45,250 nt of DNA, from IMG/VR virus record IMGVR_UViG_3300000928_001590, positions 1-45,250 of that record; one strand, given 5' to 3'. This DNA comes from a virus. Made by a program: the position numbers and the translations under genes. Below, in pieces: positions 8,358-45,250 of the stretch. The first letter of the stretch is position 1, and every line of letters begins with the position of its first letter. The notes under the pieces are model-generated. The model was not told the origin of the DNA. It worked only from the letters and a program-made list of their open reading frames with translations, and made no database searches.

Positions 8358-8361
8358 ATCA

Positions 8362-8369
8362 TATAAATA
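8362..8369 (+). promoter_or_regulatory. T4-type late promoter TATAAATA
   Basis: Exact match to the T4 late consensus, placed just after the stop of the 4110 gene and 106 bases ahead of the ATG at 8476. It is the longest leader among the late promoters ahead of giant fibre genes. Confidence 0.75.
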
Positions 8370-8475
8370 CATTATATAATAGACGCATAGACCTAATTGT
8401 GTTTATTATCATACTGTGGTTAGCCCGCAACGTAAGGTGGCTAGAGGGACAGGATCCCCGTATTGAGGAGAAAAG
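8370..8475 (+). promoter_or_regulatory. structured 5' leader of the 8476 gene
   Basis: The gap holds no reading frame. It contains TAGCC/GGCTA arms (8421-8425 and 8439-8443) and a possible GGG/CCC pairing at 8446-8448 with 8456-8459, followed by GAGGAG as ribosome binding site. The G+C content is visibly higher than the flanks. It may fold and affect translation, but no known riboswitch class is recognised. Confidence 0.3.
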
Positions 8476-26716: not shown

Positions 26717-27673
26717 ATGGCAACATTACAATCAATATTACAATCAAGAGCAGGGTCTTCTGCAGAAACTAACCTTGAAACTGGTAAATTATGGGCTTAT
26801 TCAACAGTTACAGACTATACAACATATGGTGGTTGCCATTGCTGGATTTCTCCAGGTAACGGAACTGTACAATTAGAAGTAATTGGTGCAGGCGGTAGTG
26901 GATCAAGGATGTGTTGTTGTTCATCAACACTTCCGGGTAACTCGGGTGCGTATGTTAAAAAATCTGATTTAACAGTAACAGGTAGTTGCTACATATGTGT
27001 ACGAGCAGGTAAAAGTTGTAGAGGTAGCGGCCTTTGTAACAGAGGCTGTTCAGAAGCCGGAATGGCTTGTTGGACAGGTAACGGTACGAACGGTTGTATA
27101 TGTGCAGAAGGCGGTAGATCAGGAACTAGTTTCTGTACTACAGGAACTGCTCGTAGATGCTGTATGATGGCAAATTCATTTTGTGGAACAACATACAGTG
27201 GATATTGTGGACTTGTATGTAACCACTGTCCGGGAGCTTGGTGTGCATGTGCATACGGCGGCGATATAAACAGAATGGGCAATATTAGTTGTAGTACATA
27301 CTGGCACTGTTATCCAAATTGTAACTGTAGTACAATCCATCATGTTGCGATTGCACCAGGTTACTTTAGTGAATGTGGCGGAGTTGTTTCATACGGATTA
27401 GACGGTGACAACGGCCACTCTGAGTGGTCCGGAATGGGCTTTCAGGGATATATACAAGCACTTAACGCAATGAGTCGAATGCCAAGCCAAGGCGCGGCAT
27501 GGACTGAGTGTTGGGATGGTGCAAGAATTTGTCAGTGTTACGATACACAAGGTTGTACAATGTATGTACCACACGGATCAGGCGGTCCGGCGGCAACACC
27601 ATGTTCGGGTGTTAGAGATAACGGTTGGGCAGGCGGTGACGCCATAATTAAAATTAGATACGTAGCAACTTAA
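26717..27673 (+). CDS. cysteine- and glycine-rich protein, paralogue 3 (318 aa)
   Basis: The third member of the family has 32 cysteines by my count. It keeps GAGGSGSRMCCC, the CNRGCSEAGMACW block, GLVCNHC, the CYPNCNC block and the C-terminal GVRDNGWAGGDAIIKIRY. It replaces the STNSSLYCC block with TTGTARRCC. It lies directly after paralogue 2 and shares more of its middle region with it (AYGGDINR, then GNISC) than paralogue 1 does. Function unknown; virion surface is the likely place. Confidence 0.75.
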   Translation: MATLQSILQSRAGSSAETNLETGKLWAYSTVTDYTTYGGCHCWISPGNGTVQLEVIGAGGSGSRMCCCSSTLPGNSGAYVKKSDLTVTGSCYICVRAGKSCRGSGLCNRGCSEAGMACWTGNGTNGCICAEGGRSGTSFCTTGTARRCCMMANSFCGTTYSGYCGLVCNHCPGAWCACAYGGDINRMGNISCSTYWHCYPNCNCSTIHHVAIAPGYFSECGGVVSYGLDGDNGHSEWSGMGFQGYIQALNAMSRMPSQGAAWTECWDGARICQCYDTQGCTMYVPHGSGGPAATPCSGVRDNGWAGGDAIIKIRYVAT

Positions 27674-28479: not shown

Positions 28480-29472
28480 ATGACAGCAAGATCAAAAGCG
28501 TTTTTTTTAAATGGCGGAGCAGGAAGGATGCTTTGCTCAATACCAGCACTTGAATTATATGAAAAGGAGTCTGGTGATACAGATTTTGTAATAGTATGTG
28601 AAGGTGGAACAGATATGTTTAAAGGTCATCCTACATTGGATGCTAGAGCATATGACCCATGGCATAAAAATTTATTTAAAGATGTACTAAAAAATAGGGA
28701 TGTAGTATATCCCGAACCTTATAGAGTATGGGAATACTATAATCAAATGTGTAGTTTAGCACAAGCATTTGATATCGAATTAAACGGAAAAGGTATAAGA
28801 GAACTACCTAAACCTACATTAAGACTTAGTAAAGACGAGTTACTTGTTGGTCGTAAATTAGTTAATGAAATTAAAGAAAAAATTAAAAAAGACAAGTTAC
28901 TAATACTACAGCCGTTTGGAAGAGGGATTGAAGTTATTGATGACACTCCAATGGATCATACCGCAAGAAGTTTTGAATTTTCAGACCTTAAAAAACTTAT
29001 GAAAGAGTTAGAAAAAGATTATGCACTTATTATGATGAGTGAACTTAAAATTGATCTTAAAGGTGAAGGATTAAAACGCGAAGTTGCGATGCCTGAAGGA
29101 TTAAATATTAGACAATGGGCCGCAATGATTAAATATTCAGATCATTTCTTAGGTTGCGATAGTGTTGGCCAACATTTAGCATATTGTGTTGGAACAGAAA
29201 CTACTGCCGTACATGGCGCAACATTTCCTATAAATGTATCTTACCCTGATACTGAAAATTTTAATGTATTAGACCTAGGTTCAGAAGCTAGAATTTATGA
29301 TCCTATACGTATTGTACAAGAAGAATCTACTAATAGATCCAATGAAAACTTAATGTCAATGGATGAAAAAATTAGAGAATACGTAGTAGGTGTAGTAAGA
29401 GGAACAATTAAACATACTAGCGGTGATCAAGAACCTGAGATTATTGAACCAAAAGTTATTAAAGAAAAATAA
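28480..29472 (+). CDS. GT9-like glycosyltransferase (heptosyltransferase family), 330 aa
   Basis: The start is taken as the ATG at 28480, with ATGGAG/GAGAG ahead. The frame is open back to a TTG at 28429, but that lies inside the terminator loop. The N-terminus (NGGAGRMLCSIPALELYEK, residues 11-29) and the C-terminal FLGCDSVGQHLAYCVGTETT (223-242) match the two nucleotide-sugar-binding regions of GT-B family 9 enzymes. These include ADP-heptose:LPS heptosyltransferases. Asp-Ser-x-x-x-His is the diagnostic part. The enzyme probably transfers a heptose or similar sugar in the cytoplasm. It overlaps the next gene (TAATG). Confidence 0.7.
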   Translation: MTARSKAFFLNGGAGRMLCSIPALELYEKESGDTDFVIVCEGGTDMFKGHPTLDARAYDPWHKNLFKDVLKNRDVVYPEPYRVWEYYNQMCSLAQAFDIELNGKGIRELPKPTLRLSKDELLVGRKLVNEIKEKIKKDKLLILQPFGRGIEVIDDTPMDHTARSFEFSDLKKLMKELEKDYALIMMSELKIDLKGEGLKREVAMPEGLNIRQWAAMIKYSDHFLGCDSVGQHLAYCVGTETTAVHGATFPINVSYPDTENFNVLDLGSEARIYDPIRIVQEESTNRSNENLMSMDEKIREYVVGVVRGTIKHTSGDQEPEIIEPKVIKEK

Positions 29473-30341
29473 TGTCAAGACTGTTTGTATTAGGTTGTAG
29501 TTTTACAAATTATGCTTGGCCTACTTGGGCCGACATGTTAGGTACAGAGTTTGAGGTATATGAAAACTGGGGATATCCAGGATTAGGTAATCAGGCAATA
29601 TGTGAAAGACTAGTTGAATTACATGCTAGAGAACATCTTACAAAAAATGATACAGTAATTATCCAATGGACTAGTCATTTAAGAAATGATTATCATACAA
29701 CCGATACTCGTAGAGAGGGTGTACTAGAAGGAGTTGGATGGAAGACCTGTGGAAGCATTTTTAATTATATCAATGCTGAGTTGTATAGCGATGAATGGAT
29801 TAAGACTTTTTGGGACGAAACTAGCTATACAATGCATCTACTAAACAACATTGTATTAGCACAAGGTCTTTTAAAAAGTATAGATTGTAATTGGTATATG
29901 ACTAGTATGGGAGAGCTTGAAAAAATGAATTCAGACTATCCAGACGGACTACAAGGGGAAGTAGGAAGTACTAATAATATATGGAAAGATATTCCTCCAT
30001 TAAGTATGTATAAAGATTTAATTGCAAACAATAGATGGATTAGACCTGTAGGCACTACTGCGTGGAATAGCAAGATTGAACATTTTAAATTTAAGGATCT
30101 TTTAAACACTCATAAGTTTACTACTGATAGGCATCCGAGTATTGATCAACACGCTGAATACTTATTAACGCAAGTAAAGCCAAAAATTAATAATAGCCAG
30201 GATTTAAGTAAATTATCAAGAAAATGGATAGATAAAGTTAATACAATATATAAGAATACGCACAAAGACTTTGAAAATTTTTGTGAAACAATTTATAAAG
30301 ATTTGCCTGAGTGGCAAGGTAATAGATATAGAGGATTTTAA
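29472..30341 (+). CDS. SGNH/GDSL-type hydrolase-like protein, 289 aa
   Basis: The N-terminal VLGCSFTN (Ser10) fits block I of SGNH hydrolases. GYPGLGNQ (34-41) fits the glycine block, Asn72 in HLRND fits block III, and DRHPS (219-223, Asp and His) fits block V. This family includes esterases and acetyl-hydrolases that act on sugar acyl groups. A member in a glycan cassette may add or remove an acetyl group. The start overlaps the stop of the glycosyltransferase gene (TAATG), and the next ATG follows the stop without a gap, so all three are coupled. The family is fairly clear, the substrate is not. Confidence 0.65.
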   Translation: MSRLFVLGCSFTNYAWPTWADMLGTEFEVYENWGYPGLGNQAICERLVELHAREHLTKNDTVIIQWTSHLRNDYHTTDTRREGVLEGVGWKTCGSIFNYINAELYSDEWIKTFWDETSYTMHLLNNIVLAQGLLKSIDCNWYMTSMGELEKMNSDYPDGLQGEVGSTNNIWKDIPPLSMYKDLIANNRWIRPVGTTAWNSKIEHFKFKDLLNTHKFTTDRHPSIDQHAEYLLTQVKPKINNSQDLSKLSRKWIDKVNTIYKNTHKDFENFCETIYKDLPEWQGNRYRGF

Positions 30342-32159
30342 ATGAGTAAAAAACCAATTTGGATTGCGGCAATAGCAAGAGGACATAATGCAGGTGTATG
30401 TTTACTTAAAGATGGAGAAGTAGTATTTTCTATTGAAGAAGAAAGACTGTCGAGGCAGAAATACGACGGCGGACCCTTTGCAAGTATGGTTAAAATATTA
30501 GATTACACTGATAAAATTGATTATCTTGTAGTTGCACATACACAACCATTACTAGAAACAGCAGGTAAAATAGATTATAGCGGAGATGACATTTATACAG
30601 GATTAGCAAGAAAGCTAGGACTAATTGATCAAAAAGCAAATAATACATCTTTTGAACATCCGCAAGTTATTGACTTGGCATTTATGCATCATAAATTACA
30701 CAGTGCATGTGCATTTTATAGAAGCGGATTTGATAGTGCAGTTAGTGTAATTGTTGACGGGGCTGGCACATTTATTCCATTAGCAATAAACAATGAACAA
30801 GTAATGAGCTGGGAAGTTGAAAGTGTAATTGATTGCGATTATCCTGCAGAGTTTAGTACTAAATTTAAAGTATACGGAACTAGAGAACCTATTCCGGGAG
30901 GTATGACTACAATGCCCTCAGATATGTTTGGCGAAAATAATGAAGAACATGTAGCTATAGTTTCTGACAGAGCTGGTATTGTTAAGGTATACGAAGCAGT
31001 AACACAGTACTGTGGGTGGAGCGGAATTGAAGCAGGAAAAACTATGGGGTTATTTCCTTACGGTAAAGAAAATAGTAATGTACCTAAATTATTTGACGAT
31101 CAGTCTCTTTATCCGTTGTCAAATAGAAACGTAATTGTTCCTAACTATCCTAACGGCGCTATAGTAAATAGCGGCGTATATGATTATCTAAATGAAATAA
31201 ACCAAATGGAAAATCAAGATAAGGATTTAACTGTACTCGATAGCAGACGAGATATGGCTTATGCTTGTCAAGTAGAAACTCAAGAGCAAGTCATAAAATT
31301 AATTAGACAAGCGGTAGAAGAAACAGGCAAGAAAAAAGTAGTTATTAGTGGCGGATATGGACTTAATTGTGTAGCAAATTATCATTACTTAGACGCACTT
31401 AAAGACGACGGCCTTGAAATTTATGTTGAGCCAGTAAGTAATGATGCTGGAACAGCAATGGGTGCGGCAATGATGTTTTGGTATGGATTGGAAGAAGATT
31501 CAGAAGTTAAACAGACACAATCATTATACTTAGGTCCTGATAATAATTACACATTAGACGATATTATTAATAAAACATCAGCAGTAGAAGGCATTTCTAT
31601 TAAAGATGCTACTAACGAAAACATTGTCGAATTGTTAACACAGAAAAATATTGTTACTATTTTTCAAGGTAAAAGTGAAAATGGACCACGTGCATTAGGT
31701 AATAGAAGTGTATTATTTGATCCAACATTTGAAGATGGCAAAGACTTTGTTAACGAAGTAAAGCATAGAGAATATTTTAGACCATTTGCTGGTAGTATAT
31801 TAGCTGAAGATGTACACGAATGGTTTGACTTGCGTGGCATGGATGATAGTCCGTACATGATGTATGCAGTAAATTGCCAGCCAGGTATTGCAGAAAAGAT
31901 ACCGAGTATTATTCACGTTGATGGTACATGTCGTATTCAAACTGTAACTAGAGAACAAAATCCACATTACTATGATTTAATTAAAGCGTTTAAAGAAAAA
32001 ACAGGTGTTCCTATAGTGTTTAATACTAGTTTTAATTTAGGCGGTGAGCCGTTGGTTGAAACGTTAGAAGATGCAATTTGGACATTACAACAATCAGATA
32101 TTGAATACTTGTACTTGCCTGAATTTAACAAACTCTTAACCATTGCCAATAAAGAATGA
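30342..32159 (+). CDS. NodU/CmcH-family carbamoyltransferase, 605 aa
   Basis: N-terminal ARGHNAGVCLLKDGEVVFS followed by EEERLSRQK is the family hallmark. A histidine-rich HHKLHSACAFYRSGFD segment (around residue 110) and VDGAG follow. ISGGYGLNCVAN, NDAGTAMGAA and ENGPRALGNRSVLFDP mark the C-terminal region. The family uses carbamoyl phosphate and ATP to place a carbamoyl group on a hydroxyl of a sugar (NodU) or other small molecule (CmcH). The length fits. With the preceding glycosyltransferase and SGNH genes it forms a sugar-decorating cassette. It is the clearest enzyme on this strand. Confidence 0.9.
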   Translation: MSKKPIWIAAIARGHNAGVCLLKDGEVVFSIEEERLSRQKYDGGPFASMVKILDYTDKIDYLVVAHTQPLLETAGKIDYSGDDIYTGLARKLGLIDQKANNTSFEHPQVIDLAFMHHKLHSACAFYRSGFDSAVSVIVDGAGTFIPLAINNEQVMSWEVESVIDCDYPAEFSTKFKVYGTREPIPGGMTTMPSDMFGENNEEHVAIVSDRAGIVKVYEAVTQYCGWSGIEAGKTMGLFPYGKENSNVPKLFDDQSLYPLSNRNVIVPNYPNGAIVNSGVYDYLNEINQMENQDKDLTVLDSRRDMAYACQVETQEQVIKLIRQAVEETGKKKVVISGGYGLNCVANYHYLDALKDDGLEIYVEPVSNDAGTAMGAAMMFWYGLEEDSEVKQTQSLYLGPDNNYTLDDIINKTSAVEGISIKDATNENIVELLTQKNIVTIFQGKSENGPRALGNRSVLFDPTFEDGKDFVNEVKHREYFRPFAGSILAEDVHEWFDLRGMDDSPYMMYAVNCQPGIAEKIPSIIHVDGTCRIQTVTREQNPHYYDLIKAFKEKTGVPIVFNTSFNLGGEPLVETLEDAIWTLQQSDIEYLYLPEFNKLLTIANKE

Positions 32160-33586: not shown

Positions 33587-36500
33587 GTGGCAAAAAAGAG
33601 AATTCACAATTATATATTTAAACCGGGAATAGGATATAATGAAAACTTGTATCCTAATGCATATTCTTTATTAAATGCTAACAGGGCATTCCTGCTTGCA
33701 GAAAGTATTGCATATATTAACCAAGAAGTTATTGACGCAGTTAAATGTCAACGTGATATAGGATATATAATTGACGGTATTGCATTTGATATTGCATTAG
33801 AAACAAATTTTAATACATTATTTTTAGGAAGAGCTGAGAATTATTCTGTAGATAATTCTAAAACTGTACTAAGAACTATTAATCGAGCTAAAGCAAGCGT
33901 TGCCGCATTAACCGAAGTTGCCGCAGACGCAACATCATTATCAAGATCAAATGCGGCGTTTACTGAAATACTTGATATTATAGAAAATAGCTCTCCAGAC
34001 ACATTAACACTTACAAATCCAACAGATGCTACTGCTAGTAGAATTGCCGCAAAAGATAGAATTATAGCAAATAAAGATTTTTTAAGAAACGAAATTATTG
34101 CATGGACTACAGCATCTTACCCAGCGTATGATACAACACAGTCAAACGGTGTTGCATCAGGTGCATGTGATGTAAAGTATGCTATTGAAGCGGCTGCCTA
34201 TGATATATTATATGGAGGTAATAGCGGAAGCTATGATGTAGCTAGATTATTTCCTAATTCAGCGGCTTCTACAGTTAGCTTATCAGGAACACATCAAACA
34301 CATGTAGTAGCGGCATACGGAAGATTAAAAATAATTATTGCTCAAGTTGTTCTAGGAACTACAGTTACAGCAAGCTCAGGTAATTCTACAGCACAAATAA
34401 CAACAGGAACTAATGCAGATACAGCAGACGGAACAGCAGTTACAAATTTAATTGATATATTTAATGATGTATTACAAACAGGTGCGTCCACTTTAGATGC
34501 ATTAACAAGAACGGTTCCTGCTATTACTTGGGCAACTTCTCCAATACAAACAGCAAAAACTGCTATTGATTCAGCAAAAACAACAATCGTAACAGCCGTT
34601 ACATTTTCTACAACATATACTTATAATCAAGCTAAGTGTGAAAGAGATTTAGGTTATATTTTAGATGCATATAAGTATGATTTACGATACGGCGGAAACA
34701 GCAAAACAACCAAATATGCTAAAAAATATTGGGATGGAGATGTAGCACAAGTTGATGGTAATAGAATTCCAGAAATTGATACTCATGCACATATTGGAGA
34801 TTTAATCTCTAATTATATTTTACCTCAAATTACTTGGACAAAATTAGGAACAGTTGATCAAGTAACTGATGCATCAATAACATACGAAGGTGCTACTGCA
34901 ACAACAAGAATTGATGAATTAGTTACATTGCTTACTGGAGTAATAACTTCGGGACTAAGTGCATTACCGACATTTGTTGATACTGGTGCAGGCTATGTAA
35001 AATTTATCGGCAATTATAATAGTACAGATATACTATTAATAACAAATACATCTGATAACGAAGTCATTTATAGTTTTAACGAACCTCTTAGAGGAGGCCT
35101 TACAGAAATAAGCCAGGGGTATGTTGGTACATCCGGTAATCAGTTCTATGCAGATGAAGATTTTAAAAAATATTTACAAGTAACAGATGCTGTTACTACT
35201 GTACAATTAAATTATAGTACATCGACAGCTTTACCAACAGACGGATTACAAATATTTGTAGATACTGATGAATTAGTAGTGCGTCCATACGAGTTTGGAA
35301 CAGATGCTATTGAACGTATGCGTGTTGCACCTCCGTTAAGTATGCTTGATGCTGACTTTGAGTATGGACTACAGCCTACTAAATGGTCAGCTATTGCTAC
35401 CATGAGAGGGTACCCGTCAGTATACGAAATACCTGGCACAGAAACTGATGTAAGTTTAGTAAGGACTGATAGTTCAGCAGGCACCGGAGGTGTTGGTGCA
35501 TCTCTAATCACTGTTACTACAGTAGGTGCTCACGGCTTTGAAGAAGGCGATGCTATTACACTTAAAGGATTAAATCAAGGAGTAATAGGTACTGCTAGAG
35601 CTGAAGGTGCATTTATTCTTACTGAAGTTCCTAGTCCTACTACGTTTACATATTTTGCTAAAGCAAAAGTAGGTGATGGCGGAACAATAGATATTCAAGT
35701 AGAATCTACGCAATTAAGAAAAGCTGGTTTTTATACAGGAGCATCTATAGGTGAATCTCCTAGTGTTGTAGTACAAAGTAATGGTAGTAGTGGTACAATA
35801 TCACCTGCATTAACAGTTCCTACTGGCGAGGATATAATTCCATTTACTGTTGTTTCAGGAGCGGCGCCGGAAATAGGTTCGCCCTTAACAGGTACAGGAA
35901 TTCCAACTGGTGCTCAAGTAACTGGTAAAGTAGGTAGCGGGGGAGTAATAGTTACTCCGATAATGACTGCTGACACAGCGGCGGGTGAAACAGCAATTGA
36001 AGTTCAAAATGTAACCGGAGTTGCAGTAAATCAAGCGGCAGACCGAGGCGACGGCCAAGCAATGATTGTTAATAGTGTTTTAGGAACAACTATCAATTTT
36101 AATGATGCACTAACATCAGAGTTTAAAGGTAATTTAGTAACTTATAATGATGTAGTAGGAACTAACGATACTTCAAACGGTAGTGGATTAATATTAAATG
36201 TAAGTAGAGCAAGTGGTAGTTATACTGTTGATAATATTGTAATATCTGGAGTAGGATACGAAGGAGGCGATCAGCTAGTTATTTTAGGTGATGTATTAGG
36301 CGGTCAATCACCAGGAAACGATTTAAGTTTAGTTGTAGGAAGTGTCGATACAGGCGGAGAAGTATTATCCTTAACAGCTAGTGGAACAGCATTTGACGGT
36401 ACTGGATCGTTTGTTTCGGTTACTACATCATATTTACATGGTAACGGTAACGGCGGTATATGGGACGTTACATACAATGGCGGTACGTTTGACGCTACAT

Positions 36501-39500
36501 TAATTGAGCCTACATATCCTAGCCAAACAGGCACAGTTGGCGGAGGAACAGGGACTGGAGCAATATGGAATATTACATCAACAAACAATACTTACAGTAT
36601 TACTATTGACCCAAATGAAGTAGGGGTAACTGGGTATTCGCAATATGATGTAATTAAAATTCCAGGAAATACACTAGGCGGCGCAACACCTGATAATGAT
36701 GCACAGATAACTATAACTTCAGTTAATTCAATTGGATTTCCTACAAACTTTACTGTTGTAGGTAACGGTGCAAATGCATCAAATAATTATATAGGTGTTA
36801 CATGGTCAACTAATGGCTCCGGTGTTGGAGCAACTCTTAATATTAATTCCGTTGGGTCTACTTATAGTGCCGCGTTTTCAGTAACAGGATCAGGATTTTC
36901 TGTAGGAAATACTGTAACTGTATTAGGTACACAACTAGGCGGAACATCGCCAGCAAACGATTGTACAATTACACTTGATACTGTTGATACTGGTGGAGAA
37001 ATACTTACATACACAGTAACAGGTACAGCATATAATGTTGCTACATATACTAATGTAAACAGTGGTACAAATTTAGTAGGTACCGGAGCAACATTTGATG
37101 TTGCAAAAAATGGCGCGGCATATACAGTAACTTTAGTAAGCGGTGGTGACGCTTATGCACCAAATCAAACTATAACATTGAATGGAACAACATTTGAAGG
37201 AATTAGTCCAACAAATGATCTTGTATTAACAATTACTGATGTAGATAATGATTCAACACTTACAGCAGGACCACTATTGACTTTTAATGCAGTAGGTACA
37301 GCAACAAGAGGAACAACAGGATACGTTGCAAATGATAGATTAAAGATTCAAGGCGGCCAATTTACAGGCGGTACAAACGTAACTAATGATTTAGTTATAT
37401 TAGTTACAGGAGTTGGTGCTGAAGGAAATATTACTTCGAGTACGTACTCTGGTACAGCACCAGATGCTACTGCACAGTATAATGCTGTAGCTCCAACAGG
37501 CGGCTCGGGTTCAAATTTAACAGTTGATATCACAAGAACTGGAGCAGTGTATAGCTTAGTATTAAATGACGTAGGTAGTGGTTACGTAGCGGCAGAAACA
37601 GTAACAATATTAGGTGCAGTATTAGGCGGAACAACTCCTGCAAATAATGCTACAATTACAATTGACGGAGTAGACGGATCAGGTGCAGTTACTACAGCAA
37701 GTATTTCAGGAGCGGCGGCTAATGCTGGATCAGCATCTAATTTAAGTTCAGAAAACAATCCAGGTGCTGGAGCCGGATTTACTGTTAGTCTAACTGGTGG
37801 AAATTACACAGTTTCTGTTGAAACTGCTGGTAATAATTATGTTGCAAATCAAAAATTTAAAGTACTTGGCGAAAACTTATCAGGTATAACTCCAACAAAT
37901 GATGCTGAAATTACTGTTAGTAGTGTTGATGCTACCGGTGCAATAACTGGTGCTACTATTACAGGATCAGGTTCTACTGATGTAGCGTCATTTTCTAATG
38001 TTGTTGTAAGTAATGCGTCACTTACAGGTAATGGTGCTACCTTTAGTGTCCTAAGAGATGGTACAACTGCTGACAGTAGTGTAGGCATTTATACAGTTAC
38101 AGGAGGAACCCAAGGTAATGGATATGCTATAGGTAATAGAATAATTATTGATGGCGGAACAGTTGGTGGAACACCAACAACAAACGATATCATAGTTAGC
38201 ATTGCTAGTGTTGATAGTGCAGGCGGTGTTGTAACGTTTACATACGTAGGTGATGCATTTGCTGGCACTGACTTACAATTATATTCAACAACTACAATAG
38301 ATTCAGCAGTTACAGCACCACTAACTACAAGTCAAAATATAACGTTTGAAGCACTAGCAACATTAAGAATTACATTTACTACACCGCACGGACTTGTCCC
38401 GGGTGATACATTTATTACTACAGTATCAAGTGATACTGGATCTAATAATCATAACTTAGCGGCAGGATCGTTCTTAGCAATCGCAGTTCCAACAAAGTTT
38501 ACACTAGATTATACAGCTAGATCAGTTGGGGCTATTGTTACTTCAGGTACTGAAATTATTAGTGCTATTGTCTATCCAAGACCAGATTCATTCTTTATAC
38601 ACAGACCGTATGATGGTGGTGTACAACTAGGAACTGGTGGTCCACAACATGGAGCACAAGCAATACGTCAAAGTAAAAAATATATTAGATACCAGTCAGG
38701 TAAAGGTATTATGTATACAACAGGTGCATTGTTTGCTCCAAGTTACGATCTTAGAAGTGCTACATCAACCGGAGTCGAAACTGGATCAACTATTACAATA
38801 ACTACAGATGATAACGATCACGGATTACAAATTGGCTGTAAAATTAAAATTATTGGTATTGATACACCGGGATATAATAACACATACGTAGTTAATGATA
38901 TTATAGACGAACGTACTTTTGAAGTTACTGCTACCCTAAGATTAGGCTCTACAACAGCAACATTAAGTTTTAATGCACAAGTTTCAACTAGTGAATGGCA
39001 CGGTGCAACAGTACGTTCAGGTATTTTTGATGATCAAAACGGAATTTATTGGGAATACGATGGTACTAACTTATTAGTATGTCAAAGAACAAGTACTAAA
39101 CAAGTTGCAGGTACTGCAACGATATCACCTGATACTAATGTACTAACAGGTACAAATACTAGATTCCAGGATCAGTTAAAAGCAGGAGATAGAATTGTTA
39201 TTAGAGGAATGACACATGTTGTTGCTCATGTTAATAGTCAAACAGAAGTTAATGTTACGCCAGATTATAGAGGTGTTAATACTGCGGTAGGTGCAAAAGT
39301 ATGCTTAGTAAGCGATAAAAAAGTTAGACAATCTGATTTTAACCTAGACACATTTGACGGTAATGGTCCAAGCGGATACAACATTGACGTAGCAAAGATG
39401 CAGATGATTGGTATTGAATATTCATGGTACGGTGCTGGTTTTATTGATTTTATGGTACGTGGATCTGATGGTAATTTTATCTATGCACACAGAATGCGTA

Positions 39501-41023
39501 ATTCAAACATTAATACAGAAGCATTTATGCGTACAGGTAACTTGCCTGTTCGTTATGAAATTACTAACGAAGGTGCATTAGGTAGATTAAAAACAACAGC
39601 AACAGATGCTAGTACTACGCTAGAATTAGATGATGTAGACTTTTTTCCAAATTCTGGAACAGTGTTTATTGACAATGAGTTAGTAACGTATACTGGTAGA
39701 GATGAATCAACTAACACACTAACAGGATGTAATAGAGGCGCATCGTTAACAAACTTCCAGTCAGGTGCATCAAGAACATATACAGCAGGTGTCGCCGCAA
39801 CACACACAGCAAAAACCGGAGTTGTGTTAGTAAGTAACACATGTACTCCACTTATATCACATTGGGGTTCAGCGTTTATTACAGACGGCGGATTTGATGA
39901 TGATCGAGGTTACATCTTTAGTTATGCTGAACAAGGTCTAACTGTTAGTACTACAAGACAAACAGCATTTTTGATTAGACTAGCGCCAAGTGTATCAAAT
40001 GCTATTACAGGTGACTTAGGCGATAGAGAACTATTAAATAGAGCTCAACTACTACTAACAGGACTTGAAATTACAAGTGAAACAAGCACCGGCGGTATTG
40101 TTGTTGAAGGTGTTCTTAATCCTCAAAACTATCCTACTAACCCGTCATTGGTTGGTTGGTCAGGATTATCAGGACTTGCACAAGGTGGACAACCTAGTTT
40201 TGCTCAAATTGCTTCAGGCGCTGGTATTACATGGTCAACTGGTGCGGCGGCGACAACAACGACACTTACTTCACAAAGTGTTATAACAGCTCAGCTAGAT
40301 AGTGGAATATATAGTACAGGTAATAATTCAAGTTATGTATTTGTTAGTGGTATTGATTATAGAACTACATTTGGTTCAAATGATATTAATTTTGTTGTTG
40401 GACGTACTATAACCGGTGCAAATATTAGAAGTAACACAACCATTAACGATGGATTTATTGATAGTAGTGGTAATTATGGGTATTTTAGATTGAGTCGAAG
40501 AACAAGTGGCAGTATTAGTACAAACCAATCAAACTACTTTTCGCTAACTGAAGGTGGCGATCAAGTTAATACAAACTTTGCACTAATAACACAAGCAAGT
40601 TGGGAAGCATCGGGTGGTACAAACGGAACAAATGTTGATCCATCAACATCAAGTCCAGGATTTCCATCAGGTACACTAATTAACAACGTTGAACAAAAGA
40701 ATTTTGCTGGTACAACATATTATCGACTTACATTTAATAACGCAATGGACGGAACACTAACAGCAGGTAGTGGTACAATTACGCTACAGTTTATTCAACC
40801 ACCGTTTGCTCAACCAGGTGAAACAGTACTATCGTTTATTGCTACACCAAATGAAAGAGCGTCACTAGACTTATCACAGTTGAAAGAACTTACAAATACT
40901 ACATTAGGCGGTAGAGGAACATTTCCAAATGGTCCAGATGTTTTAGCAATTAATATATATAAAACAACTGGCTCAGATGTAGTAGCTAATTTGATTCTAC
41001 GTTGGTCTGAAGCTCAAGCGTAA
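33587..41023 (+). CDS. giant virion protein with helical and tandem beta repeats, 2478 aa
   Basis: It starts at GTG (MAKKRIHNYIFKPGIGYNENL). Residues about 30-430 are helical, with three modules containing a conserved Cys and the pattern x-x-D-x-x-GGN (KCQRDIGYIIDGIAFD at C54, a degenerate ACDVKYAIEAAAYD at C194, KCERDLGYILDAYKYD at C351). Residues about 860-1560 hold seven or eight tandem beta repeats with the core LGGxxPxND-x-x-I-T. The C-terminal third (for example RPYDGGVQLGTGG, SGKGIMYTTGALFAPSYDL) resembles large conserved virion proteins I know from marine T4-like phages. It may be a long fibre or a baseplate-linked protein. The gene ends overlapping the opposite-strand gene by 10 bases. 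Confidence 0.8.
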   Translation: MAKKRIHNYIFKPGIGYNENLYPNAYSLLNANRAFLLAESIAYINQEVIDAVKCQRDIGYIIDGIAFDIALETNFNTLFLGRAENYSVDNSKTVLRTINRAKASVAALTEVAADATSLSRSNAAFTEILDIIENSSPDTLTLTNPTDATASRIAAKDRIIANKDFLRNEIIAWTTASYPAYDTTQSNGVASGACDVKYAIEAAAYDILYGGNSGSYDVARLFPNSAASTVSLSGTHQTHVVAAYGRLKIIIAQVVLGTTVTASSGNSTAQITTGTNADTADGTAVTNLIDIFNDVLQTGASTLDALTRTVPAITWATSPIQTAKTAIDSAKTTIVTAVTFSTTYTYNQAKCERDLGYILDAYKYDLRYGGNSKTTKYAKKYWDGDVAQVDGNRIPEIDTHAHIGDLISNYILPQITWTKLGTVDQVTDASITYEGATATTRIDELVTLLTGVITSGLSALPTFVDTGAGYVKFIGNYNSTDILLITNTSDNEVIYSFNEPLRGGLTEISQGYVGTSGNQFYADEDFKKYLQVTDAVTTVQLNYSTSTALPTDGLQIFVDTDELVVRPYEFGTDAIERMRVAPPLSMLDADFEYGLQPTKWSAIATMRGYPSVYEIPGTETDVSLVRTDSSAGTGGVGASLITVTTVGAHGFEEGDAITLKGLNQGVIGTARAEGAFILTEVPSPTTFTYFAKAKVGDGGTIDIQVESTQLRKAGFYTGASIGESPSVVVQSNGSSGTISPALTVPTGEDIIPFTVVSGAAPEIGSPLTGTGIPTGAQVTGKVGSGGVIVTPIMTADTAAGETAIEVQNVTGVAVNQAADRGDGQAMIVNSVLGTTINFNDALTSEFKGNLVTYNDVVGTNDTSNGSGLILNVSRASGSYTVDNIVISGVGYEGGDQLVILGDVLGGQSPGNDLSLVVGSVDTGGEVLSLTASGTAFDGTGSFVSVTTSYLHGNGNGGIWDVTYNGGTFDATLIEPTYPSQTGTVGGGTGTGAIWNITSTNNTYSITIDPNEVGVTGYSQYDVIKIPGNTLGGATPDNDAQITITSVNSIGFPTNFTVVGNGANASNNYIGVTWSTNGSGVGATLNINSVGSTYSAAFSVTGSGFSVGNTVTVLGTQLGGTSPANDCTITLDTVDTGGEILTYTVTGTAYNVATYTNVNSGTNLVGTGATFDVAKNGAAYTVTLVSGGDAYAPNQTITLNGTTFEGISPTNDLVLTITDVDNDSTLTAGPLLTFNAVGTATRGTTGYVANDRLKIQGGQFTGGTNVTNDLVILVTGVGAEGNITSSTYSGTAPDATAQYNAVAPTGGSGSNLTVDITRTGAVYSLVLNDVGSGYVAAETVTILGAVLGGTTPANNATITIDGVDGSGAVTTASISGAAANAGSASNLSSENNPGAGAGFTVSLTGGNYTVSVETAGNNYVANQKFKVLGENLSGITPTNDAEITVSSVDATGAITGATITGSGSTDVASFSNVVVSNASLTGNGATFSVLRDGTTADSSVGIYTVTGGTQGNGYAIGNRIIIDGGTVGGTPTTNDIIVSIASVDSAGGVVTFTYVGDAFAGTDLQLYSTTTIDSAVTAPLTTSQNITFEALATLRITFTTPHGLVPGDTFITTVSSDTGSNNHNLAAGSFLAIAVPTKFTLDYTARSVGAIVTSGTEIISAIVYPRPDSFFIHRPYDGGVQLGTGGPQHGAQAIRQSKKYIRYQSGKGIMYTTGALFAPSYDLRSATSTGVETGSTITITTDDNDHGLQIGCKIKIIGIDTPGYNNTYVVNDIIDERTFEVTATLRLGSTTATLSFNAQVSTSEWHGATVRSGIFDDQNGIYWEYDGTNLLVCQRTSTKQVAGTATISPDTNVLTGTNTRFQDQLKAGDRIVIRGMTHVVAHVNSQTEVNVTPDYRGVNTAVGAKVCLVSDKKVRQSDFNLDTFDGNGPSGYNIDVAKMQMIGIEYSWYGAGFIDFMVRGSDGNFIYAHRMRNSNINTEAFMRTGNLPVRYEITNEGALGRLKTTATDASTTLELDDVDFFPNSGTVFIDNELVTYTGRDESTNTLTGCNRGASLTNFQSGASRTYTAGVAATHTAKTGVVLVSNTCTPLISHWGSAFITDGGFDDDRGYIFSYAEQGLTVSTTRQTAFLIRLAPSVSNAITGDLGDRELLNRAQLLLTGLEITSETSTGGIVVEGVLNPQNYPTNPSLVGWSGLSGLAQGGQPSFAQIASGAGITWSTGAAATTTTLTSQSVITAQLDSGIYSTGNNSSYVFVSGIDYRTTFGSNDINFVVGRTITGANIRSNTTINDGFIDSSGNYGYFRLSRRTSGSISTNQSNYFSLTEGGDQVNTNFALITQASWEASGGTNGTNVDPSTSSPGFPSGTLINNVEQKNFAGTTYYRLTFNNAMDGTLTAGSGTITLQFIQPPFAQPGETVLSFIATPNERASLDLSQLKELTNTTLGGRGTFPNGPDVLAINIYKTTGSDVVANLILRWSEAQA
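36178..38270 (+). repeat. tandem protein-coding repeats, about 70-90 codons each
   Basis: Each unit reads roughly GxGATF-x-V, a Tyr-rich strand, GxxY, TITLxGxxLGGxSPxND, ITxVDxxG. About seven full units and one or two partial ones are visible. DNA identity between units is modest, so they are old or fast-evolving repeats, not recent duplications. Confidence 0.75.
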
Positions 41024-41541
41024 AGATTATAGTTTACAATACACCGTGGATTATTAGTTGGAAATCCACCAGCATGTAATGTATTACCATCAAATAAAAC
41101 AATACGTCCTTTTTTAGGAGTAACTCTTTGTAACTCCTTATTATTTTCAAAAAATATAGTATCACCATCACTATCGTTTACATAGTAAATTAATCCTAAA
41201 TGTTCTTCAGGTCGATCAGTATGTGGTGCGTAATAATCTAATGTTGTTTTGTGCGGAACTGTTATGAAAAGTCTTGCGGCAATAATATCAACTAAATTAA
41301 TATTAAGTTCTGAACAAATAATTTGTGGTATTTTACTAAAGTTTCCATAATGTTCAGTTAGTTTAGTACTACTCCTAAGAACATGTTCAAAACTAACAGG
41401 CATTGAACCGTTTTCAGAAGCAGTAGGTTCGTATTTACAAACAAGTGGTAACATTGCGTTAACATTAGTATTGCCAAATACCAGTGTATGATAATAGTCC
41501 TGTAATTCTTGAGGTACTAAATCATCACGTACGATTATCAT
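41014..41541 (-). CDS. 2OG-Fe(II) oxygenase, 175 aa (distal gene of operon)
   Basis: The HxD...H...R signature of the double-stranded beta-helix oxygenases is present. His107 and Asp109 lie in YYAPHTDRP, His156 in DGNTLHAGG, and Arg166 in NNPRCIVNY. Such enzymes hydroxylate a substrate using 2-oxoglutarate, oxygen and iron. Several marine T4-like phages carry them next to surface or sugar genes. The start shares ATGA with the stop of the GmhB-like gene, so it is translationally coupled. The stop overlaps the end of the 33587 gene by 10 bases. Substrate unknown; a sugar, a protein side chain or a nucleotide are all possible. Confidence 0.85.
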   Translation of the reverse strand: MIIVRDDLVPQELQDYYHTLVFGNTNVNAMLPLVCKYEPTASENGSMPVSFEHVLRSSTKLTEHYGNFSKIPQIICSELNINLVDIIAARLFITVPHKTTLDYYAPHTDRPEEHLGLIYYVNDSDGDTIFFENNKELQRVTPKKGRIVLFDGNTLHAGGFPTNNPRCIVNYNLYA

Positions 41542-42176
41542 TTATGTGCAGTTTCTAAATAATCTACAAAAGCCGCTAAATCGTCAAATGCTAACATTGC
41601 TTTTGCTATCTTTTTATATGCAAATCGACTATTAATTAGTTCTTCGGTTTCAACACCATGTCCTGTACGGATTAACACAGGCTTAGCGCCTACTTTCATA
41701 GCCGCTTTCAAATCTCTTAATCTATCACCTGCATAATACCCGTGTTTAAATTTAACATGTGGAATTTCTTTTTCTGCACGTTTAAACATACCGGCATTTG
41801 GTTTTGCATACATATCACTTTTATGACTACATGCACTATAATATAAACCGTCAATACTTGGACATCCTGCTTCGCCTAGTTCTTTAAACATATGTTCGTG
41901 TACTTTGTCGACGTCTTGTTCAGTGTATATGCCTTTATGAATTCCGCCTTGATTTGTAATAATAACAATTTTATGACCAAGTTTACGTAATTTTACAATA
42001 GCTTCTAAACTTCCCTTTTCGAATTCCCAATCTTCAACTTTATAAACATAATCTCCAATGTCAACGTTAATAACACCGTCTCTGTCTAACCCTACTACAC
42101 ACTTAGGTGCTACATAGTCTGGTTTATAGAAGTCAATATCTACATCATTACTCCATACAATTTTTGGATTACTCAT
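41538..42176 (-). CDS. GmhB-like D,D-heptose 1,7-bisphosphate 7-phosphatase, 212 aa
   Basis: HAD-superfamily class IIIA motifs are present: GLDRDGVIN (Asp31, Asp33), ITNQGGIHKG (Thr74-Asn75-Gln76), AKPNAGM (Lys125) and YAGDRLRDLKAA (Asp151, Asp155). The best match I recall is GmhB, which removes the C7 phosphate from D-glycero-D-manno-heptose 1,7-bisphosphate. The first zinc ligands (Cys116, His118) remain, but the Cys-x-Cys pair of the zinc loop is missing and the loop is shorter. About 25 extra residues precede the motif I region. Overlaps with both neighbours suggest coupling. A related HAD phosphatase acting on another sugar is possible. Confidence 0.8.
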   Translation of the reverse strand: MSNPKIVWSNDVDIDFYKPDYVAPKCVVGLDRDGVINVDIGDYVYKVEDWEFEKGSLEAIVKLRKLGHKIVIITNQGGIHKGIYTEQDVDKVHEHMFKELGEAGCPSIDGLYYSACSHKSDMYAKPNAGMFKRAEKEIPHVKFKHGYYAGDRLRDLKAAMKVGAKPVLIRTGHGVETEELINSRFAYKKIAKAMLAFDDLAAFVDYLETAHK

Positions 42177-42585
42177 CTTTAATGTTTCCTGTTATTTCTT
42201 CAAGCATTCCGGCCTGGCTATCTCCAGGAATAATCCTGTAGTTATCTTCTACACTATCAGCAGTACTAACTTCTGTTACACTACTGCCATCTTCTAATGC
42301 TTCTAGTTGATGTGGACGTAATGGAGGATTATGCCATGTCATCCCCTGTGTTAGCGTATGTGTAAACAACGTAGCTGTGCTAGTGTCTAACCACCTAACA
42401 ATAAAACTACCTTCATTTACAAACCATGTTTCGTCTTTGTCTTTGTGAAAGTGCATACTAAATTTATTTCCTTTTTTCTCAAAGAACATAATCTTTCCAC
42501 AATACTTTTCATTTGTTGCCCAAATGATTTCGTATCCCCAACCTTTATCTACTTTACCTTCAAGTCTTGTTGGTTGTTCTGTCAT
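42169..42585 (-). CDS. cupin domain protein, sugar-phosphate isomerase-like, 138 aa
   Basis: Cupin motif 1 is exact: Gly39...His45-Phe-His47, Glu52, Gly59 (GNKFSMHFHKDKDETW). Motif 2 is around Gly81-His92 (PLRPHQLEA). The KGWGYEIIWATNEKY opening and PHQ...EVST ending resemble the C-terminal cupin of mannose-1-phosphate guanylyltransferase/phosphomannose isomerase (type II PMI). The reaction is not certain: isomerase, epimerase, or sugar-binding roles all fit. Its place between hldD and the GmhB-like gene suggests a step in making or shaping an activated sugar. It is coupled to both neighbours. Confidence 0.75.
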   Translation of the reverse strand: MTEQPTRLEGKVDKGWGYEIIWATNEKYCGKIMFFEKKGNKFSMHFHKDKDETWFVNEGSFIVRWLDTSTATLFTHTLTQGMTWHNPPLRPHQLEALEDGSSVTEVSTADSVEDNYRIIPGDSQAGMLEEITGNIKDE

Positions 42586-43409
42586 TATTGATTCTCCTCA
42601 ATCCATTCAAACGGTGTTGTAAACTTAAAATCACCTATTGTGTTTAATAATTTATCGTTGTTGCTTTGTGTAAAACTTTGATATTGATTTTTTACACTAT
42701 CAGGAATTGGAATTTCTTCTATTGTAGCATTATGTTTGTCAGCAATACATTTAGCAATACTTCCAAAACTAGTTGCTTTACCTGTACCTACATTCCATAT
42801 TCCACTCTCATCAGTATCAATAAACTTAGAAATAATTTTACATATATCACCGACATATATGAAGTCTCGACATATAGTATCACTACCTGCAAACGGATGT
42901 ATAGTACCAGTAAGAGCTTGTTCTTTAAATTTATGAAAAACGCTCATTTGAAAACCTTTATGGTCTTCATGCTCGCCGTAGACATTAAAAAATCTTAGTC
43001 CTTGTATTTTACACTGATATTCGCTCCAGTCTAATTTTTGTACAGTTCTATCAAATAAATATTTGCTCCATGCATAAGGTGATTGCGGCTGTAACGGACC
43101 ATCTTCTGTAAAATGTGTAGTAGGTCCATAAACACTTGCACTTGATGCATAAATTAAATCAATACCTTGCATATCGCATACATGTAATAGTCTTTCACTA
43201 AAGTCTAAGTTTTGCTTCATTACCTTTTCAACATCAGTTTCAGTAGTACTACTAATTGCACCTAAGTGAATAACTTTATCAAACTGACTACAATCTGGAA
43301 CTACATTTTCAATCCATTCATACTCAGCAACTCCATGACCTTCGCCCATAAGATGTTTAACTAAGTTTTTTCCGATAAATCCGTTACTTCCGGTAATTAA
43401 TATTTTCAT
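42585..43409 (-). CDS. ADP-L-glycero-D-manno-heptose 6-epimerase (HldD/RfaD-like), 274 aa
   Basis: Short-chain reductase with a GSNGFIG dinucleotide motif (Gly7, Gly10, Gly13), SSAS near 89-92 and the catalytic pair Tyr112-x3-Lys116 (YAWSK). HldD-specific stretches are HLGAISSTTETD, GLRFFNVYGEHEDHKG, CRDFIYVGDI and QYQSFTQ. HldD converts ADP-D-glycero- to ADP-L-glycero-D-manno-heptose, the last step before heptose is transferred to LPS. It is shorter than the E. coli enzyme I recall (about 310), so loops are trimmed. It shares TAATG junctions with both neighbours, so expression is coupled. Confidence in the HldD call is high. Confidence 0.88.
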   Translation of the reverse strand: MKILITGSNGFIGKNLVKHLMGEGHGVAEYEWIENVVPDCSQFDKVIHLGAISSTTETDVEKVMKQNLDFSERLLHVCDMQGIDLIYASSASVYGPTTHFTEDGPLQPQSPYAWSKYLFDRTVQKLDWSEYQCKIQGLRFFNVYGEHEDHKGFQMSVFHKFKEQALTGTIHPFAGSDTICRDFIYVGDICKIISKFIDTDESGIWNVGTGKATSFGSIAKCIADKHNATIEEIPIPDSVKNQYQSFTQSNNDKLLNTIGDFKFTTPFEWIEENQ

Positions 43410-44233
43410 TATGAACTTGCCATTTCTATATTAGTAATATTTTCTGTAATACGTTTATTAAATTCTAACGTATCTTGATATGCATAAAGACCTTCACTCA
43501 ATGCTCTACTAAAACTTGCACTCATATCTAAATTCTCACTAAGTTTTTTACATGCTAAACTTGTTTCGTAACCGCCACTAAGACCAACTAATTTTTTTAC
43601 ATTTTTATGCTGAGATAAATCGTGGTATAAATTAGGAACATCTGGAATAGTAAGTTTTAAAATAACTTGCGGCAAGGTTTTATCAAATCGATCGTTAACA
43701 TGTTTTTCAAAAGAATCCAAATACGGTTTAATACTTTCATTTAATAACATTTCAAAGTGATGTTTGTGTTCAATGTCAATAGGAATTTCAGGCTCAATAA
43801 TTGGAACTAAATTTTGATTAGCAATTTTTAAAGCATATTCAAATTGTTGCTCTAAAATAGGTTGTATCATATCTTCGCTTTTAACAATACTTCGCATCTT
43901 TGTACCTAAACATCCGTGCCACGAAGCATATTCTGTCATTTCAAATAAATCAAATTCTTTTAACATACCGTCTTCATTACATCCGCTATCAATTTTAAGA
44001 TATGCATCTATACCTTTATTTTTAAGTACATCTACAGCGCCTCGATGAATAGAATCTTTGTATAGTATTGCCGCCCAAATATTACTACTATTAAATGCCG
44101 GTGAATTAATCATCCGTAATCGCATTTCGTGGACCAAGTCCATTTTATTTTCTTCTGTATACTCTTGTCCGTAACGCTCTAATACACCGCCTGTTGATCC
44201 GCCACTGTGATCCATTGCCGCTATAAATCTCAT
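43409..44233 (-). CDS. class I fructose-bisphosphate aldolase (Fda type), 274 aa
   Basis: MDHSGGSTGGVLERYG (Asp8), GTKMRS (Lys112), VPIIEPEI (Glu147), ILKLTIPDVPNLYHDL (Lys193, the expected Schiff-base lysine), LSGGY and ASFSRAL all match the Staphylococcus-type class I FBP aldolase. This enzyme cleaves or forms fructose 1,6-bisphosphate from glyceraldehyde-3-phosphate and dihydroxyacetone phosphate. Some aldolases also make sedoheptulose-1,7-bisphosphate, which would tie the gene to heptose supply, but that link is inference. It lies between hldD and an oxygenase, coupled through TAATG and ATGA junctions. The length is slightly short of the usual near-295 residues. Confidence 0.88.
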   Translation of the reverse strand: MRFIAAMDHSGGSTGGVLERYGQEYTEENKMDLVHEMRLRMINSPAFNSSNIWAAILYKDSIHRGAVDVLKNKGIDAYLKIDSGCNEDGMLKEFDLFEMTEYASWHGCLGTKMRSIVKSEDMIQPILEQQFEYALKIANQNLVPIIEPEIPIDIEHKHHFEMLLNESIKPYLDSFEKHVNDRFDKTLPQVILKLTIPDVPNLYHDLSQHKNVKKLVGLSGGYETSLACKKLSENLDMSASFSRALSEGLYAYQDTLEFNKRITENITNIEMASS

Positions 44234-44787
44234 TTTAAGTCCTCCTCTAAAATATAACTAAAATCTTTATTAGGATATGGAATAAAATTAAAATTAATCA
44301 CACACCTAGTTTTTTGATCTGTACACGTTGTTCCTGTATGTTTCCAATTTGCTGGAAAAACTAGTAATCTATTTGCTTTACTCTTTACGGGTTTTATTTC
44401 TTTGCTTTCAAACCTAGTTTCGCCATCGTTTGTATTTAAGTAATAGATAGCAGTAAGTGCCGGCCAAACATGTGTATCGGTGTGATATCCATGTTCTATA
44501 ATTTTAGTAGCTCTTGGTAATAAGTTTGCTTTAATTCTAATTAATTGACACGGCTGTAAAATGTTAAAAAATCTATACATTAAATTAAATATGTTGTCGC
44601 TAGTAGTAGGCCCAAAATTTTCATGTATGTTGTGTACAAACTGAAACTGATAATCATCGTTATCTTTAGATTTATCTTTATCATCTACAACTTTTGATTT
44701 GTAAAACCAAGGGAACATTTCGCCGTACATAATATCATTTAACTCTTTAAACTCGTTAGTAGGTAGTGCGTTATCTATGATTTTCAT
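44230..44787 (-). CDS. 2OG-Fe(II) oxygenase, 185 aa
   Basis: His102 and Asp104 (YHTDTH), His150 (NWKHTG) and Arg161 (TRCVINFNF) make the HxD...H...R iron and 2-oxoglutarate site. A proline-hydroxylase-like core strand is LTAIYYLNTNDGETRF. It resembles the oxygenase at 41014 in layout but not closely in sequence. The start overlaps the HldE-like gene by 17 bases and the stop overlaps the aldolase start (ATGA). Substrate unknown. Two oxygenases flanking sugar genes suggest oxidation of the same final product. Confidence 0.83.
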   Translation of the reverse strand: MKIIDNALPTNEFKELNDIMYGEMFPWFYKSKVVDDKDKSKDNDDYQFQFVHNIHENFGPTTSDNIFNLMYRFFNILQPCQLIRIKANLLPRATKIIEHGYHTDTHVWPALTAIYYLNTNDGETRFESKEIKPVKSKANRLLVFPANWKHTGTTCTDQKTRCVINFNFIPYPNKDFSYILEEDLK

Positions 44788-45250
44788 CTATTATCCTTGT
44801 TGTACTATGCCCTTCGATTATAGGAAAAATAACAATCTTAGCAAGATGATTACCTACTACAGTGTCAAATGTATAGTCGCCGCCTTTTACTATAATATCT
44901 GGCTCTAATTTGGTGATTGTTTCCAACGGAGTATCTTCTTCAAATACAATAACATCGTCTACAAAACCAAGCTCTAAGAGGCTTTCCTTGCGGGTGGCTT
45001 GATCGTTTATGGGTCTTAAATCGCCTTTTAATCTCTTAACACTAGAATCGCTGTTAATGCCCACTATAAGTCTATTTCCAAGCGTTTTGGCATAATTTAG
45101 TAGTTTTAAATGGCCAACGTGTAATATATCAAATACACCATTAGTAAACACTACAGTATCTTCTACATCTTCTTGTTTAAGAATATATGTACCTGAATGT
45201 TTAACACTTTCAGTTGATCCTTTAACAGCAATTTCTAAACATTTTTTATG
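44771..45250 (-). CDS. HldE-like ADP-heptose synthase, C-terminal cytidylyltransferase-fold domain (partial)
   Basis: FTNGVFDILHVGHLKLLNYA (HxGH motif) with GDRLIVG-like GNRLIVGINSDSSVKRLKG, RPIND, KPDI-like EPDIIVKGGDY and HSTTRII define the nucleotidyltransferase half of HldE. The frame stays open from a GTG at 45149-45151 to the window edge at 45250 and reads KKCLEIAVKGSTESVKHSGT before the domain. This resembles the end of a PfkB-type kinase domain, so the gene probably continues as a bifunctional kinase/adenylyltransferase. It has at least 159 codons here. HldE phosphorylates and adenylylates D-glycero-D-manno-heptose 7-phosphate. The true start lies outside the window. Confidence 0.85.
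   Translation of the reverse strand, partial: HKKCLEIAVKGSTESVKHSGTYILKQEDVEDTVVFTNGVFDILHVGHLKLLNYAKTLGNRLIVGINSDSSVKRLKGDLRPINDQATRKESLLELGFVDDVIVFEEDTPLETITKLEPDIIVKGGDYTFDTVVGNHLAKIVIFPIIEGHSTTRIIDENHR

Follow-up and report, generated by a model that had tools for sequence, protein, structure and literature searches.

A cupin as the probable replacement of GmhA in a phage-borne ADP-heptose pathway

How can a virus make ADP-heptose when the isomerase that opens the pathway is missing from its operon? The question is posed by a 45,250-base virus fragment (IMG/VR record IMGVR_UViG_3300000928_001590, positions 1 to 45,250; this whole stretch is called the window here), whose minus strand carries HldE-, GmhB- and HldD-type genes in an operon with no SIS-type GmhA. 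GmhA converts sedoheptulose-7-phosphate (S7P) to heptose-7-phosphate, and this product is the substrate of the heptose-7-phosphate kinase. A first-pass annotation of this DNA had noted that the window lacks the GmhA step, and had placed a small cupin of the same operon outside the standard pathway. The absence holds for SIS-type GmhA, but not for the step, since the cupin, the best candidate, is very probably that step. With a probability of roughly 85%, we propose that the virus makes ADP-heptose by a five-step pathway in which the cupin replaces GmhA.

The minus-strand run at 41014-45250 comprises seven genes, each overlapping or abutting the next, and the overlaps of 1-17 bases are consistent with one coupled operon. 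In order, the genes encode HldE, a 2-oxoglutarate (2OG) oxygenase, a class I aldolase, HldD, the cupin, GmhB and a second 2OG-oxygenase. The first-pass annotation had described the HldE-, GmhB- and HldD-like genes as one coupled operon, and their placement, profiles and motifs bear this out; the genes it named at 41538-45250 are real, but the second oxygenase begins lower, at 41014. These genes, and two plus-strand genes taken up further below, are the following.

44771-45250, minus strand: C-terminal part of HldE, with the end of the heptose-7-phosphate kinase domain and the heptose-1-phosphate adenylyltransferase domain (rfaE_dom_II); open at the window end
44230-44787, minus strand: 2OG-Fe(II) oxygenase 1, optional cargo found only in some relatives (PF13640 7.9e-7)
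43409-44233, minus strand: class I fructose-bisphosphate aldolase-type protein, optional cargo (PRK05377 6.4e-69)
42585-43409, minus strand: HldD-type ADP-heptose 6-epimerase (TIGR02197 1.5e-70)
42169-42585, minus strand: cupin, proposed S7P isomerase in place of GmhA (Cupin_2 1e-5, motifs, context)
41538-42176, minus strand: GmhB-type HAD phosphatase (PRK08942 1.1e-40)
41014-41541, minus strand: 2OG-Fe(II) oxygenase 2, optional cargo and last gene of the operon (PF13640 4.4e-7)
28480-29472, plus strand: GT9-type (heptosyltransferase-like) glycosyltransferase (weak profiles, GT9 fold in the structure model)
30342-32159, plus strand: NodU/CmcH-type carbamoyltransferase (PF16861 9.7e-60, PF02543 1.4e-25)

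In the proposed route, the cupin (42169-42585) would act first, as a metal-dependent aldose-ketose isomerase giving D-glycero-D-manno-heptose 7-phosphate in place of GmhA. The HldE kinase domain would then phosphorylate C1, GmhB would take off the C7 phosphate, the HldE C-terminal domain would adenylylate the sugar and HldD would epimerise C6. The product would be formed in infected cells, and the GT9-like enzyme would probably transfer the heptose; a tail fibre of the phage itself, or a glycan at a surface, may be the acceptor.

The exchange of GmhA for the cupin is seen in cells. When bacterial and archaeal genomes were scanned with the cupin, it turned up within hld operons of Parcubacteria (L173, L170) and of a Woesearchaeote (L178), in the order GT9, cupin, kinase, HldE-C::GmhB fusion and HldD in L173, and these three genomes contain no GmhA, only short matches inside longer SIS proteins that are roughly the size of GlmS. 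A strong heptose-7-phosphate kinase (TIGR02198 E<1e-60) is present in 13 of 192 Patescibacteria; nine of these carry GmhA (E<1e-50), four carry the cupin (E<=1e-35) and none carries both, and in all four the cupin adjoins the kinase or is fused to it. Among 148 DPANN archaea, the kinase is found in 33, with GmhA in 17, the cupin (E<1e-28) in 10, neither in 6 and both in 0. Pooled, the 46 kinase genomes include 26 with GmhA, 14 with the cupin and, at the thresholds used, 0 with both. The hypergeometric chance of zero overlap, with relatedness ignored, is 0.0014 for Patescibacteria, 8.7e-5 for DPANN and 1.6e-7 for the pool.

This distribution is not that of one old split, because the kinase tree requires at least 8 cupin/GmhA switches; cupin-bearing G240 is sister to GmhA-bearing G338 (support 99/89), and cupin-bearing G045 is nested among GmhA genomes. 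The two enzymes also share a position. In G251, G240 and G316, a divergent regulator precedes the run cupin, HldD, kinase, GmhB and HldE-C (the last two often fused); in G338 and G369, the same divergent regulator precedes GmhA, which stands at the cupin's position. Fusions of the cupin to the kinase in either order (cupin::kinase in G201 and G223; kinase::cupin in G246, G257 and G366) are mirrored by GmhA::kinase in G159 and kinase::GmhA in G294. Because the cupin is fused to the kinase and excludes GmhA, and GmhA makes the kinase substrate, the cupin is best read as making that substrate as well. Patescibacteria and DPANN also have fusions of GmhB with the HldE adenylyltransferase domain, with either partner first (L173:10236-11303; L241:4519-5529; L242:3687-4673; L247:4043-5092).

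Structurally, the cupin fits the D-lyxose isomerase type by its fold, its HxH..E..H ligands and a near full-length profile match, and D-lyxose isomerase is an aldose-ketose isomerase. The metal site reads HxHxxKxE...H and is accompanied by KGWG, YCGK, EVST and DxYR; invariant across the cupins are WGxE, the C and K of YCGK, SxHxH, K, E, the third His, E-S and D..R. The AlphaFold2 (AF2) model is a single cupin domain (pLDDT 85), and its Foldseek fold matches include a single-domain phosphomannose isomerase as well as D-lyxose isomerases in complex with fructose or mannose. A family profile of 22 cupin sequences, searched against PDB profiles, matches the B. subtilis D-lyxose isomerase 2y0o at 1.8e-8 over positions 21-111 of 120, in an alignment that pairs the YC-K, HxH, K-ETF, G and E-S motifs; it also matches L-ribose isomerase and mannose-6-phosphate isomerase. 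The nearest cellular sister group, separated with a split support of 100/99, consists of cupins beside mannose-1-phosphate guanylyltransferase (GMP) genes, which are presumably mannose-6-phosphate isomerases. Fructose-6-phosphate is turned into mannose-6-phosphate, and S7P into D-manno-heptose-7-phosphate, by one and the same chemistry (ketose to manno-aldose), applied to a six-carbon sugar in the first case and to a seven-carbon sugar in the second; by analogy the cupin may perform it on the longer sugar. A plain type II mannose-6-phosphate isomerase was considered and rejected, given SMHFH and DNYR versus SLQ-H and DDYGR, the lack of a GMP neighbour and the 100/99 tree split.

The cupin could instead serve elsewhere in the heptose pathway: it might be an anomerase working for the kinase or, as happens during heptose modification in Campylobacter, an epimerase acting at C3/C5 of the nucleotide sugar. 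The kinase fusions would fit an enzyme that delivers the kinase substrate, and C3/C5 epimerases work on modified heptoses in Campylobacter (PMC7949155). An accessory enzyme would, however, be expected beside GmhA, whereas the cupin swaps with it one for one in the same slot, with 0/46 kinase genomes holding both, and its metal site (HxH/E/H) is ketol-isomerase-like, as are its YC-K and K-ET motifs. We regard such a role as quite improbable.

Several points weigh against the cupin as a substitute for GmhA. The E-value thresholds were set after the genome tables had been seen, and the completeness of the genomes is unstated. Two cupin archaea (G263, G316) also hold a weaker SIS protein of about 200 residues, below the GmhA level, the cupin lies away from the kinase in G308, G334 and G263, and six kinase-bearing archaea have neither enzyme. 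The best single PDB profile scores of the cupin are to quercetinases, though across a shorter stretch, and its Foldseek matches include oxalate decarboxylases, as with many cupins. Its reaction cannot be told from fold alone; an assignment on that basis was set aside as not decisive, as many generic cupins score equally. Relatives of the cupin occur outside any hld neighbourhood (L168, L169, L174, L182, L184, L199, L216, L217), and in two of them (L168 and L169, from a Marinoscillum genome and a 'Rickettsiales' metagenome-assembled genome) close relatives of the phage cupin, near 7914-8372, share a conserved neighbourhood with no hld genes found nearby. Finally, the window phage is represented by a fragment and not by a whole genome.

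In phages, the replacement of GmhA by the cupin agrees with the company that the cupin keeps. Scans with the aldolase and HldD gave the order neck genes, NUDIX, HldE, HldD and cupin, with GmhB, aldolase and oxygenases as optional members. When the cupin alignment served as the query, 80 phage loci were retained, of which 78 were new; HldE and HldD both lie near the cupin in 77 of these 78, the exception ending at a contig edge, although most of the loci share one genomic locus and synteny alone would inflate the count. GmhB is present in 34 of the 78 and the aldolase in 1. The gene set is kept while its order is shuffled in L072, L076, L079, L108 and L147 and in the isolates P-SSM2, S-CAM1, S-CAM3, S-SSM7, S-SM2, Bellamy and P-TIM68. 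The run in P-SSM2 consists of five consecutive genes, which by sequence assignment are one for each step of the five-step pathway: HldE C-domain, PfkB kinase, mini-HAD, cupin and epimerase. The GmhA domain SIS_2 (PF13580) was found in 0 of 37 cupin-type phage records, including nine whole isolate genomes, and in all 14 of 14 control genomes. One or two tryptophan-halogenase-type flavoproteins are inserted upstream of HldE in L112 (946-3929) and S-SSM7 (L237:81-1568).

Isolate genes named 'phosphoheptose isomerase' might appear to supply GmhA. This was rejected, as all nine of the nine checked are one family of mini-HAD phosphatases of about 110 residues (DxDGT, TARG), with a weak match to the capsule phosphatase family EcbF/BcbF and none to GmhA or SIS_2. 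The mini-HAD is likely a substitute for GmhB where GmhB is absent. In P-SSM2, the names of YP_214542.1 and YP_214543.1 are both misleading, the 'phosphoheptose isomerase' being the mini-HAD and the 'cysteine dioxygenase' being the heptose cupin.

It was left open in 2010 for cyanophage lipopolysaccharide (LPS) genes that such cassettes are cargo DNA serving genome-size packing, or are otherwise non-functional (Sullivan et al.). Five enzymes for five steps nevertheless stay together in phages with unrelated backbones, even where their order differs; the motifs are intact and the reading frames overlap, and P-SSM2 carries the five pathway genes consecutively, so that mere cargo seems very unlikely indeed.

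The remaining pathway genes fall where the first-pass annotation had put them. It had called for the contig to be extended beyond 45250 and for related phages to be searched, and both have now been done, the latter with the result given above. The IMG/VR contig L002 is identical to the window at 99.99% over 9,329 bp and reaches 5.7 kb past its end, where it completes HldE (L002:5058-6200) as a 380-residue kinase::adenylyltransferase fusion and so supplies the kinase domain. In profile searches, this full HldE matches PRK11316 (6.7e-82) and rfaE_dom_I TIGR02198 (1.4e-52), its adenylyltransferase domain matches rfaE_dom_II TIGR02199 (1.3e-46), and the motifs HxGH, DxTGAGD and STT are present; the kinase domain is shortened and below cut-off, with DxTGAGD kept. 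The best PDB match of HldD is E. coli HldD 1eq2 (3.5e-47), with the catalytic residues aligned (GxxGFIG, SS, YxxxK and the second catalytic lysine segment HKG). GmhB retains the DxD, TNQ and KP-GM motifs and has mostly lost its Zn-binding cysteines (CxH only). Since all NCBIfam scores are under the curated cut-offs, with catalytic motifs intact and Pfam in agreement, these proteins are classed as divergent family members. The searches place HldE (both domains, with L002), GmhB and HldD in the ADP-heptose families and in no other sugar families, and the set occurs as a whole in many related phages.

Upstream of HldE, L002 holds a NUDIX gene and then two neck or tail genes. The NUDIX gene (L002:4596-5036) was set aside as a pathway member, as it stays with the neck genes where the cassette is reversed (L108, L083) and has no clear substrate. 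LPS-type sugar genes occur in some T4-like cyanophages, and the same core set was found there; the window phage, however, differs from ordinary T4-like cyanophages, its neck protein (L002:1181-1939) being closest to PA5oct/Atu_ph07/Phosso-type phages (about 44%).

The first-pass annotation had suggested that the aldolase may feed the heptose supply and that the oxygenases may modify the sugar. On this reading, the pathway starts from D,D-heptose 7-phosphate supplied by the host, and the cupin is unrelated to it. These genes do lie inside the operon, the hosts of the window phage may have GmhA, and the aldolase looks catalytically intact by its sequence (PRK05377 6.4e-69, score 232 against a cut-off of 392; 2iqt_A 2e-42 over residues 3-273; Schiff-base lysine segment LKLTIP and substrate-binding residues conserved). 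The constant partner of the hld genes is nevertheless the cupin (77/78 loci) and not the aldolase (1/78). The hld operon is present at 11 of 45 phage aldolase loci and absent from 34, and in 29 of these 34 (within L014-L046) a mini-HAD lies directly upstream, which suggests that aldolase and mini-HAD form a separate sugar-phosphate module. The supply of heptose by the aldolase is therefore unsupported, and a start from host heptose phosphate appears unlikely, all the more as phages of a host with heptose-free LPS carry the cassette (see below). Among marine isolate phages, none was found to carry this type of aldolase, and only two Staphylococcus records do.

Both oxygenases are PF13640 2OG-FeII_Oxy_3 proteins, for which the PHROG 274 label 'DNA endonuclease V' is misleading. 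Oxygenase 2 follows GmhB in some relatives, a smaller number carry oxygenase 1, and both are missing from most hld loci. Aldolase and oxygenases are optional additions whose tie to heptose is unsupported. The end of oxygenase 2 overlaps the end of a fibre-like gene of 2478 residues (33587-41023).

Transfer of the sugar would fall to the plus-strand gene, for which a GT9-like identity had been proposed. The sequence match is weak (PF01075 E=0.036, 13.8 bits against a cut-off of 22, not passed; TIGR02201 4.9e-5), and two relatives, G374 and G379, pass the Pfam GT9 cut-off. At the level of the fold, a GT9 transferase is supported by the AF2 model (pLDDT 79), whose 29 best Foldseek hits are all GT9 (TMq 0.44-0.64) and include ADP-heptose complexes; the top matches are 3tov, WaaC 2h1h, TibC 4rb4 (with ADP-heptose) and WaaF. 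GT9-like matches occur on 10/15 hld-bearing virus contigs, 0/5 aldolase-only contigs and 0/2 isolates. The GT9-like gene and carbamoyltransferases adjoin the heptose cassette in L079, L080, L175 and L186, carbamoyltransferase-type genes are also directly beside it in P-SSM2, S-CAM1 and S-CAM3, and a tail fibre gene is near it in these last three isolates. Between the GT9-like and carbamoyltransferase genes of the window, a 289-residue protein (29472-30341) has no Pfam match and has relatives of about 30% near the aldolase loci L012, L014 and L017. By the fibre genes of the window there are three paralogous Gly/Cys-rich proteins (3109-4068, 25742-26701 and 26717-27673) of 318-319 residues, with 32-34 Cys each and 45-53% identity.

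The LPS of marine Synechococcus WH8102 contains no heptose (PMC4515613), though its phages carry the heptose cassette. This raises the question of the phage's use for the sugar, and a role in a virion glycan is therefore plausible. A wider view is offered as tentative and rather less than even in its chances: the cupin would found a second, unrelated family of S7P isomerases, which would have taken over from GmhA several times, in phages, Patescibacteria and DPANN, and marine phages would thereby make ADP-L,D-heptose in heptose-less hosts to decorate their own tail fibres, possibly in carbamoylated form.

If the cupin is the isomerase, the first step of a textbook pathway would be filled in viruses, Patescibacteria and DPANN where GmhA seemed missing. 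The vague 'LPS genes' of marine phages, regarded as possible stuffer DNA since 2010, would become a defined pathway of five steps, open to assay in a single tube, and database names would be corrected for the cupin called 'cysteine dioxygenase' and the mini-HAD phosphatase called 'phosphoheptose isomerase' in phage records. Cyanophage LPS clusters, the rfaE of pelagimyophages and generic 'cupin sugar isomerases' of phages are known; what would be new is a cupin replacing the isomerase of a known pathway. Our search of the papers available retrieved no relevant one linking a cupin to the GmhA/sedoheptulose isomerase step, or describing ADP-heptose as a phage auxiliary gene function.

Compared with the standard ADP-heptose pathway, the phage version has a homologous kinase, phosphatase, adenylyltransferase and epimerase, which are complete once L002 extends HldE. 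It differs in that the phages lack SIS-type GmhA (0/37 records) and have the cupin instead, in that HldE and HldD are shortened, and in that all the enzymes score below the NCBIfam cut-offs. The LPS cassette of the T4-like cyanophages P-SSM2, S-SM2 and S-SSM7 (T4-GC 304, 305, 307, 308), whose genes were suspected to be functionally linked, shares the HldE C-domain, PfkB kinase, cupin and HldD-like epimerase (PMC3037559). There the kinase and nucleotidyltransferase are separate and a mini-HAD takes the place of GmhB, whereas the window has a fused HldE, a GmhB and, in addition, the aldolase and the two oxygenases. Sugar-modification clusters of jumbo phages and cyanophages bring together 'cupin fold sugar isomerases', PfkB kinases, HIGH nucleotidyltransferases and HAD phosphatases (PMC7824862), but heptose, GmhA or the reaction of the cupin are not named there. 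In pelagimyophages, rfaE (HldE) is listed among LPS genes, in a paper whose main text does not contain the words epimerase, cupin or aldolase (PMC7029224). With the cupin aldose-ketose isomerases (D-lyxose isomerase 2y0o, 7nzo and 3kmh; mannose-6-phosphate isomerase 7zvm and 7zvy), the window cupin shares the fold and metal site, and with 2y0o also YC-K, K-ETF and E-S; it differs by its low identity to them, by a predicted substrate that is a seven-carbon sugar phosphate, and by its partners, the hld genes.

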